Made by a program: the position numbers and the translations under genes. Positions 45,965 through 48,703 of a stretch of DNA of 53,473 nt are shown in pieces (the stretch's first letter is position 1; each line of letters starts with the position of its first letter). The stretch comes from Pseudobdellovibrio sp. (lineage in GTDB: Bacteria > Bdellovibrionota > Bdellovibrionia > Bdellovibrionales > Bdellovibrionaceae): the NCBI GenBank assembly GCA_023701385.1, contig JAMPXC010000020.1, positions 1 through 53,473 on the forward strand. Reading direction: 5' to 3'. The notes under the pieces are model-generated. The model was given only the letters and a program-made list of their open reading frames with translations. It made no database searches and was not told where the DNA came from.

Positions 45965-46672
45965 CTACATTTTATAATCTAATCGGTAACCGAAACTTGG
46001 TACTGCTGTGATAATGCCCTGAAATCCTTCAATTTTCTTTTTCAGGTAGTTGATTTGTGAATCCACGTTTCTTGGAGTCACTTCGAAATGCCCCCACACT
46101 TCTTCCATAAAAGTGCTGCGGGATACCAGATGGTTCTGGTTTTCAATCAACAGCTTTAAAATTTCAAACTGTTTTGGAGTTAACGTGATTTCACGTTCAT
46201 TCACATACACTAAACGTGAATTCAGATTCATTTTTAAGTTACCCACAGCCAGTGTCGATGCATTTACATTAGCAATCACTGCATTGTTATCAATCGGCGG
46301 TTTAACTGTGTAACCTTGAATTCTTTTTTTAAGTCTTAAAATTAACTCTTTAGGGTGAAAAGGCTTAGCAATAAAGTCATCGCCGCCTAATTCTAAAGTT
46401 TCTACACGCTCATCTTCCGTCGCTACACCCGACATAAAAATAATTGGGATATCTTTAGTTGCTGGGTTTTCTTTTAACGATTTACAAAGCTCTGCACCGT
46501 TCACACGCGGCATTTGGTAATCCATTAAGACGATGTTTGGTTTAAACTCTAAAATAAGGTCTAACGCTGAGTGCGACTCAGAAGTTGCTTTACACTCAAA
46601 ATAAGGACTAAGGATTTCTGAGATCACTGAGCAGCTATCCACCAGATCATCTATGATGACGACTTTATTCAT
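45965..46672 (-). CDS. OmpR/PhoB-family response regulator
   Basis: This 235-residue protein has a receiver domain with DD at 8-9, phosphoacceptor Asp51 (LMDYQMP), a Ser in MSGVA and Lys in IAKPFHP. The C-terminal winged helix (about 140-235) has LTPKQFEILKLLIENQ and VDSQINYLKKKI. No kinase gene is adjacent, so it is an orphan. The start lies three bases after the stop of the SUI1-like gene, which implies co-translation. Confidence 0.93.
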   Translation of the reverse strand: MNKVVIIDDLVDSCSVISEILSPYFECKATSESHSALDLILEFKPNIVLMDYQMPRVNGAELCKSLKENPATKDIPIIFMSGVATEDERVETLELGGDDFIAKPFHPKELILRLKKRIQGYTVKPPIDNNAVIANVNASTLAVGNLKMNLNSRLVYVNEREITLTPKQFEILKLLIENQNHLVSRSTFMEEVWGHFEVTPRNVDSQINYLKKKIEGFQGIITAVPSFGYRLDYKM

Positions 46673-46675
46673 TTA

Positions 46676-47041
46676 CTAGGCCCCTTTATACTTCATGGTT
46701 TTAACATCCAATATCTTTTTTATCGCATCCCGCTTATCACCCTGAATTTCAATGCAGCCCCTATTTCCTTCGATGAAATAACTTCCACCAACGCCGCACT
46801 TCGCTTTCAATTCTTTGGTTAAATCTTTGAGGAAAGGATCGTAGGCCGGTAATTGATCTAAGACAGTCACCGTCTTGCCACCGCGGCCATTCTTCTCGAT
46901 GCGAAAAACGACCACAAATTTTTTATCAGCAACTAGGGCTTTTTGTTCGGTCTCGAAAGCTTGTCTTTCGTGTTCACCAGACATTTTCGCCTGATCCTTC
47001 GGATCATCGCTGTAGACTAAGACGCGGTTTTTATTATCCAG
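46676..47041 (-). CDS. YciH/SUI1-family translation initiation factor, probable CTG start
   Basis: This protein has about 121 residues from CTG 47041. The C-terminal part is the SUI1/eIF1-like domain (FRIEKNGRGGKTVTVLDQL, KCGVGGSYFIEGNRGCIEIQGDKRD with insertions). Starting at the first ATG (46984) would give 102 residues and lose KNRVLVYSDDPKDQAK, which aligns with the E. coli YciH N-terminus (NSRLVYST). No ATG, GTG or TTG lies between that region and the upstream stop. CTG at 47041 has GAGGAA seven bases upstream and aligns exactly with the E. coli first residue. The role is in start-codon fidelity (family knowledge). Confidence 0.8.
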   Translation of the reverse strand: MDNKNRVLVYSDDPKDQAKMSGEHERQAFETEQKALVADKKFVVVFRIEKNGRGGKTVTVLDQLPAYDPFLKDLTKELKAKCGVGGSYFIEGNRGCIEIQGDKRDAIKKILDVKTMKYKGA

Positions 47042-47176
47042 ATTACGTTCCTCACACTCCGCACAACGAACCCTCGCTCGTTAAGATTAATATTACACTA
47101 TTTCGTCAAATAGCTATGCGAAAAAATGAGAAATCTGCTAATCCGAATATAGTTGAAGCGATAATGTTAAGGTTTC

Positions 47177-48703
47177 TTAACTTCCCGATTCTTTATGAGA
47201 CGGCTCAGCTTGAGAATTCGTTTTTTCCGATAAGCTGTGTTTTGTATATTCTTTACCGTCGAATCTGAAAAGCTGCGGCTCGTTATCCATAACTGTAATT
47301 ATATTTACCGGACGCTTCCACAGTTTATTTAAGTTTTTCATTGTGGCATCCATATAATTAGGCTGTAGATCTAAACCTTCATGAACATGTCTTAATAAAA
47401 GTTCTCCACGATTTTCGAAGTTGGCGTTCTCGATTTTAATGATCGGTTGGCCAAAATTAGCTAATTGGAACAGGAGCTGCGCTTTAATTGCTTTAAAGTC
47501 GCGCGTATCGACTTCAAATTTGCCGGTTTCTTTATTCATTTTATAAACAAACATCTTATTACGAACGCAGAAGTCCTCTGTTAAAAACTCGTCAATAAAT
47601 GTTACGTCATTATAAAGCTTACGAACCTCAAAGATCTTCTCACGCCCTAAATTGAGCTTACGGTCCCAATTTTTTCGTTCTTTAACATCGTCGCACTCAT
47701 CCCACTCGCGGCCAAATTTTCCTTTATTCCATCTTTCTTCGATGTCTCTCATCAACTCGATGCCCACTTTATAGGGGTTATACCCCCCCATTTTCATAAA
47801 CATAGTGCCAGCATGGTGGTCGGCAAAGTCGATGATTTCGGAGTCATTAAGAATATATTTAGTCATAATGTGCGAATGCCAATATGAAGCCCAGCCTTCG
47901 TTCATTGTTTTGGTCATGCCTTGCGGGGCAAAATAGTAGGCTTCATCTTTAACGATCGATAAAACATCTTGCTGCCACTCTTCTAACGGAGCGTAGTGAA
48001 TTAAAAATGTTAAGATATCGCGAACCGGGTCAGCCGGGAACTGCGCTTTGTCTTGCAGTTTTTGCATTTGGTCTTTTTTAAACTCTGCAACCACATCTGG
48101 CGGGTTGATGTAGTTTTTCATGTAAGACTTTTCCACCTGGAACACGAAATCAGCTTCACGCACCTGAGGTTTTTTCTCAGTAAACTGAGTTGGCCCATTT
48201 AAAATTGAATATCGATCAATTAAATTCTCTAAACTTAAACAAGTATCAATAAAACGTTCAACTTCTTCATAGCCATAACGATCAATATAACGGCGAATGC
48301 GGGTCGCATGGTTCGCCATTTGATCCATCATTTTACGATTGGTTTTTGAAAACCAGATATTGTTCTTAAAAAAGTCACAGTGACCGTACACGTGGGCCAT
48401 CACCAGTTTTTGATCCATCATGGAATTGCCTTCCATCAGGTACGCATAACAAGGGTCAGTGTTAATCACCATTTCGTAGATTTTTGATAAACCATATTCG
48501 TACGATTTTGAAAGTTGCTCGTACTCCATACCGAATTTCCAGTGTGGATAACGTACGGGAAAACCGCCGTAGCTGGCGAATTGGCTGATTTGATCGTAGC
48601 TAATCAGTTCGAAAATAGTTTCAAAACAATCAAGGCCGACGTTTTTAGCGACTTGGCAGATCTTTTTTCTTTCTGTTTCAAGTTCTAGAGTTAAATTTGC
48701 CAT
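47177..48703 (-). CDS. spoVR: SpoVR-family protein
   Basis: This 508-residue protein is the full length for SpoVR/YcgB. Family signatures include HVYGHCDFFKNN, MNEGWASYWH and YNPYKVGIELMRDIEERW. The biochemical role is unknown. In Bacillus the homologue acts in spore cortex formation. In Gram-negatives it goes with PrkA and YeaH in stress and stationary-phase responses. It is 17 bases after yhbH, with GGAGG before the ATG. Confidence 0.95.
   Translation of the reverse strand: MANLTLELETERKKICQVAKNVGLDCFETIFELISYDQISQFASYGGFPVRYPHWKFGMEYEQLSKSYEYGLSKIYEMVINTDPCYAYLMEGNSMMDQKLVMAHVYGHCDFFKNNIWFSKTNRKMMDQMANHATRIRRYIDRYGYEEVERFIDTCLSLENLIDRYSILNGPTQFTEKKPQVREADFVFQVEKSYMKNYINPPDVVAEFKKDQMQKLQDKAQFPADPVRDILTFLIHYAPLEEWQQDVLSIVKDEAYYFAPQGMTKTMNEGWASYWHSHIMTKYILNDSEIIDFADHHAGTMFMKMGGYNPYKVGIELMRDIEERWNKGKFGREWDECDDVKERKNWDRKLNLGREKIFEVRKLYNDVTFIDEFLTEDFCVRNKMFVYKMNKETGKFEVDTRDFKAIKAQLLFQLANFGQPIIKIENANFENRGELLLRHVHEGLDLQPNYMDATMKNLNKLWKRPVNIITVMDNEPQLFRFDGKEYTKHSLSEKTNSQAEPSHKESGS

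Follow-up and report, generated by a model that had tools for sequence, protein, structure and literature searches.

A SUI1/YciH gene of Pseudobdellovibrio that very probably starts with CTG, best read as local drift from TTG

Initiation factors may control their own synthesis through poor starts: IF3 does so at an AUU codon, and eIF1 by means of a poor initiation context. An eIF1-type (SUI1/YciH) gene found in 53,473 nucleotides of Pseudobdellovibrio sp. (contig JAMPXC010000020.1, analysed at its full length and called the window below) has no canonical start codon at its conserved N-terminus, which raises the question of whether its translation begins at a CTG and, if so, whether this codon serves a similar autocontrol. 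The gene occupies positions 46676–47041 of the (−) strand and would encode 121 amino acids from the inferred start CTG 47041 (47039–47041) to the stop codon TAG at 46678–46676. An in-frame TAA (47083–47081) bounds any upstream extension, and the codons that follow it are CGA GCG AGG GTT CGT TGT GCG GAG TGT GAG GAA CGT AAT CTG GAT AAT AAA AAC CGC GTC TTA GTC TAC AGC GAT GAT CCG AAG GAT CAG GCG AAA ATG, the last being the first in-frame ATG (46982–46984). Between this TAA and ATG 46984 there is no ATG, GTG or TTG in frame, exactly as the first-pass annotation had read it, and no ATT, ATC or ATA; the only one-base neighbours of ATG are CTG 47041 and one AGG far upstream. The CTG is the sole near-cognate codon in place and the only plausible near-cognate start 5′ of ATG 46984. 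The protein contains the SUI1 domain PF01253 (53.9 bits, cut-off 25.5) with the N-terminal LVYS motif ahead of it and scores 64.3 bits with the NCBIfam YciH equivalog TIGR01158, below its cut-off of 111.65, so that it is filed with the SUI1 domain family and not as a YciH equivalog. It is the only SUI1 gene in the assembly of this genome. In this assembly neither the RNA polymerase beta domain PF00562 nor the 16S 3′ end pattern was found, which means that it is incomplete.

The segment between the CTG and the first ATG, DNKNRVLVYSDDPKDQAK (46985–47038, (−) strand), was compared with relatives in 13 genomes belonging to the genus, in further genera of its family and order and in other phyla. 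SUI1 loci were gathered with an alignment query of the genome contigs, which gave 80 of them, while a single-protein query returned no relative; judging by the relatives obtained, the genome belongs to a genus close to Bdellovibrio. The motif N-x-R-V-L-V-Y-S-x-D-P-K-D is common to these relatives and partly to E. coli YciH. In the form N-K-[ND]-R-V-L-V-Y-S-[DT]-D-P-K-D it is found, with small variations, in every congener that was read with its upstream DNA, and V9 and S11 do not vary when E. coli YciH or enterobacterial and other relatives are included in the alignment. Between the window and G013, the nearest species, whose SUI1 protein is 84% identical, codons 3–18 differ by three synonymous and no non-synonymous changes. 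The retention of the motif and the absence of non-synonymous changes indicate that the segment 5′ of ATG 46984 is protein-coding. A match of this segment to the N-terminus of E. coli YciH had been reported before; the segment is retained in congeners and partly in E. coli YciH, and the opposite outcome, its lack of conservation at the protein level, was not observed. The segment is predicted to be disordered: AlphaFold2 models residues 1–22 with low confidence and without secondary structure, helices and strands following from residue 23 on.

The start column can be aligned without gaps across the window, six congeners (G013, G008, G002, G003, G007 and G001) and E. coli. It reads CTG-GAT-AAT-AAA in the window and CTG-AGT-AAT-AAA in G013; TTG-TCT-AAT-AAA, TTG-TCT-ACC-AAA, TTG-TCC-ACA-AAA and TTG-TCT-ACT-AAA in G008, G002, G003 and G007, respectively; ATG-TCG-AGC-AAA in G001 and ATG-AGT-GAT in E. 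coli. CTG 47041 is thus homologous to the starts of relatives and stands where E. coli YciH has Met1, as was claimed for it at the outset. Across the genus the putative SUI1 start codon is CTG in the window and in G010, CTG or ATG in G013, TTG in G008, G002, G003, G007 and G012, GTG in G004 and ATG in G001, G006, G009 and G011. The string GGAACGTAA-N-CTG is conserved between the window and G013, and the DNA directly upstream has diverged. Four codons ahead of its CTG, G013 carries a further ATG in frame, without a good Shine-Dalgarno sequence, which leaves its start ambiguous and its use of CTG uncertain. The start region reads AAAGG-N9-CTG-Ser in G010 (L007) and AAAGG-N9-GTG-Ser in its sister G004; 11 codons downstream of its CTG, G010 also has a GTG in frame that no Shine-Dalgarno sequence precedes. 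In the rpoB tree, where G013 stands in for the present genome, whose assembly is without rpoB, G010 and G004 group together (support 100) and G013 falls with the ATG species G001 and G009 (clade support 80). Since the tree separates G010 from G013, the CTG of G010 and that of G013 and the window look independent. The residue at the position of ATG 46984 varies among the other congeners between Leu, Ile and Met, being Leu or Ile in most of them and Met in G013, so that this Met is not a conserved or ancestral start.

A Shine-Dalgarno-like GAGGAA (47048–47053, (−) strand) precedes the CTG; it had been reported seven bases upstream, and its presence is confirmed with a spacing of 6 nt instead. 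A simple duplex calculation gave −7.0 kcal/mol at CTG 47041; for the five congeners with TTG the values lie between −7.3 and −9.1. The 16S end, with the anti-Shine-Dalgarno sequence, was found only in G002. The values for G004, G009 and G011 are slightly affected, because their start codon was taken one codon off. ATG 46984 is preceded by an AAGGA of its own at a spacing of 10 nt, with a duplex energy of −5.9; this AAGGA is absent from G013. Weak starts tend to accompany stronger Shine-Dalgarno sequences (PMC5622118), and the sequences found at the CTG and in the TTG congeners are in line with this reported compensation. An inverse rule between start codon and Shine-Dalgarno sequence within the genus was considered and rejected: the ATG congeners G001, G009 and G011 are without one, but AAGGA is present in G006, whose start is also ATG, and across TTG genes as a whole the Shine-Dalgarno sequences are no stronger.

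To our knowledge, CTG starts in bacteria have almost never been annotated or shown. Start codons of the genus are about 84% ATG, 8% GTG and 7% TTG. Screening of about 730 distinct genes (591 orthologous genes from the four genomes G013, G008, G002 and the window, together with a further set of 180 from this genome, of which about 0.98 Mb was read; 39 window genes were in both sets) revealed no other real gene in which a canonical start is missing close to the conserved N-terminus. This screen was run with overlap filtering against antisense ORFs, and the orphans that remained were rejected by their appearance, which was that of a contig end, a frameshifted response regulator, a conserved leader or antisense ORFs. 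In 519 ortholog triples with aligned starts there was no genuine CTG at the start column except in the SUI1 gene of G013, other near-cognates being codons inside genes or at misaligned gene ends. A genome-wide habit of CTG starts was rejected on the basis of both screens. The background count must be taken as a minimum, since a CTG gene with a canonical codon nearby escapes the screen, as the SUI1 gene of G010 would. Switches to CUG are very rare also on a larger scale, with one UUG-to-CUG per 2,468 ancestral UUG and two AUG-to-CUG per 61,358 (Belinky et al., PMC5622118). The CTG start is rare, and more than chance. As the gene was chosen for the first case, the CTG of G010 should not be over-counted.

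The gene stands in an operon-like row of PrkA, DUF444 (YeaH type), SpoVR, SUI1 and a response regulator. The SpoVR gene (47177–48703, (−) strand, PF04293) lies upstream, and most loci of the genus and family that were checked have a SpoVR-like end immediately before SUI1. The OmpR-type response regulator (45965–46672, (−) strand, PF00072 and PF00486) begins with an ATG 3 nt past the stop codon of SUI1. A similarly close junction is present in G013, G008, G004, G010, G003, G012, G007 and G001; downstream of SUI1 in G009 and G011, both with an ATG start, the regulator is absent. Translational coupling of the two genes is possible, and with the regulator starting 3 nt after the SUI1 stop weak SUI1 translation could limit it. 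The gap between SpoVR and SUI1 measures 135–152 nt in the window and G013, most congeners having 28–77 nt; there is none in G025 and the Bdellovibrio-type genomes (g6), where SUI1 and SpoVR overlap by 1 nt. Within the gap of the window a block of about 36 bp, TCATTTTTTCGCATAGCTATTTGACGAAATAGTGTA (47094–47129, (−) strand), is nearly identical in G013, the rest being diverged. It may be a promoter or a regulator binding site; no sigma-70 consensus match was called at 47094–47129 on the (−) strand. A leader element for SUI1 was sought in Rfam and set aside, as the search matched only a tRNA elsewhere.

Taken together, these observations make it very probable that translation of this SUI1/YciH gene starts at CTG 47041. 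The first-pass annotation had suggested such a start, and it finds agreement in the start column, the Shine-Dalgarno sequence, the conserved N-terminus, the CTG of the nearest species and the apparently independent CTG of G010. The explanation we favour, with a probability of about 0.82, is that of an ordinary SUI1/YciH protein whose start drifted from TTG to CTG, with a retained Shine-Dalgarno sequence and low translation that IF3 can repress. The TTG (or ATG) of the congeners' column would have been replaced by CTG, the initiator fMet-tRNA would read the CUG, and the Shine-Dalgarno sequence at normal spacing would sustain initiation, the rate of which we infer to be low at CUG and lowered further by IF3, much as at the non-canonical starts of infC (ATT) and sigR (GTC). 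The infC gene of this genome starts with ATT, and the discrimination exerted by IF3 is therefore presumably intact; among the 13 congeners infC has ATT in 12, this genome included (L046–L057), and ATA in G013 (L058). Such a change would represent drift or the setting of low expression rather than a sensor loop.

Against initiation at the CTG one can put ATG 46984 with its AAGGA, the product of which would retain the complete SUI1 fold, as well as the upstream ATG of G013 and the downstream in-frame GTG of G010. If translation went from ATG 46984, the CTG and the N-terminal segment would be a decayed remnant and the protein would have 102 residues and no N-terminal tail, or both forms would be made. 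The ribosome binding motif 10 nt upstream, the Met at the same position in G013 and the location of the SUI1 fold wholly downstream speak for this variant; because residues 1–22 have no predicted structure, a shortened protein could be functional and could occur together with the full-length one. Yet the motif is intact and free of non-synonymous change over codons 3–18 in comparison with G013, most congeners have Leu or Ile where the rival start is placed, the AAGGA is missing in G013, and it is the CTG that retains both the homologous start column and the Shine-Dalgarno sequence. We consider a start at ATG 46984 distinctly unlikely. A base or assembly error that turned a canonical start into CTG might be suspected in a draft of 96 contigs, but CTG also occupies this column in G013, whose genome is independent and consists of a single contig, and this makes such an error extremely improbable.

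The idea that the bad start serves autoregulation, put forward for this gene by analogy, would require the SUI1/YciH protein to repress initiation at its own CTG in a loop like that of IF3 or eIF1, and we regard this as very improbable. Weak starts (TTG, CTG, GTG) do occur in eight of the 13 genus members, or nine if the CTG of G013 counts, mostly with strong Shine-Dalgarno sequences, and by its title Lomakin 2006 reports an in vitro fidelity activity of YciH. The title of Osterman 2015 disagrees: according to it, E. coli YciH, the bacterial homologue studied best, probably has no part in the fidelity of initiation. The poor start is also not kept in the wider family: in an automatic survey of 89 SUI1/YciH loci the codon nearest the motif was ATG in 77, GTG in nine, TTG in two and none in one (the window), which rejects a family-wide poor start, and four congeners as well as almost all of the Bdellovibrio loci read have ATG. 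Since a non-ATG start is conserved in about 8% of genus ortholog pairs anyway (18/227), the run of weak SUI1 starts is not by itself remarkable. Alignment of homologues had been proposed as a check for a conserved poor codon, and the CTG turned out to be sporadic in the genus, where CTG, TTG, GTG and ATG all occur, and a poor start is not conserved across the 89 loci. Autoregulation of SUI1/YciH through a bad start is thus not supported. Were it real, the genus would have an eIF1-like factor that rejects its own poor CTG/TTG start, a second autoregulated bacterial initiation-fidelity factor beside IF3; there is little reason to expect this. Another possibility, which goes further than the favoured explanation but is compatible with it, is that CTG was selected because it keeps SUI1, and the response regulator coupled to it, at a low level controlled by IF3. 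It has a precedent in Streptomyces, where the GTC start of sigR is repressed by IF3 (PMC5472188), and is consistent with the stress-type operon, the 3-nt junction and the distribution of the regulator, which directly follows SUI1 in weak-start species and is missing in the ATG species G009 and G011. However, G001 retains the regulator with an ATG, the genomes are few, and the CTG is not conserved, while sigR has GTC in 32 of 34 Streptomyces genomes and GTT in two (PMC5472188). Such selection seems to us doubtful. The best reading thus stays local drift of the SUI1 start from TTG, not a conserved self-regulating switch.

For practice this means that a gene caller limited to ATG, GTG and TTG would cut the protein at Met 46984 and lose the conserved N-terminal motif. 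Two apparently independent CTGs among TTG and GTG orthologues offer a compact test case for start-codon drift under the proofreading of IF3, and the same set of orthologues may be used to ask whether YciH-type proteins touch start selection at all.

In comparison with known systems, the gene shares with the YciH/SUI1 family (PF01253; E. coli YciH, PDB 1d1r) the domain, the LVYS motif and a CTG aligned with Met1, but E. coli and nearly all other members start with ATG. With infC it has in common that a translation-factor gene carries a non-canonical start and a Shine-Dalgarno sequence. The poor start of infC, however, is kept in all 13 congeners as ATT or ATA, which is how conserved autocontrol would look at the level of sequence, unlike SUI1, the start of which varies. 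The nearest precedent that has been worked out is sigR (PMC5472188), which likewise combines a non-canonical start and a good site for ribosome binding with a closely linked partner gene in a stress-related operon, but the sigR start is conserved in Streptomyces, whereas the CTG of SUI1 is sporadic. A further counterpart is offered by the switches to CUG described by Belinky et al. (PMC5622118), which are likewise single-base changes of the UUG-to-CUG or GUG-to-CUG type with a good Shine-Dalgarno sequence, but here the switch has apparently occurred twice in one gene of one genus. The CTG start of SUI1 is a further instance of this known, rare type of start.
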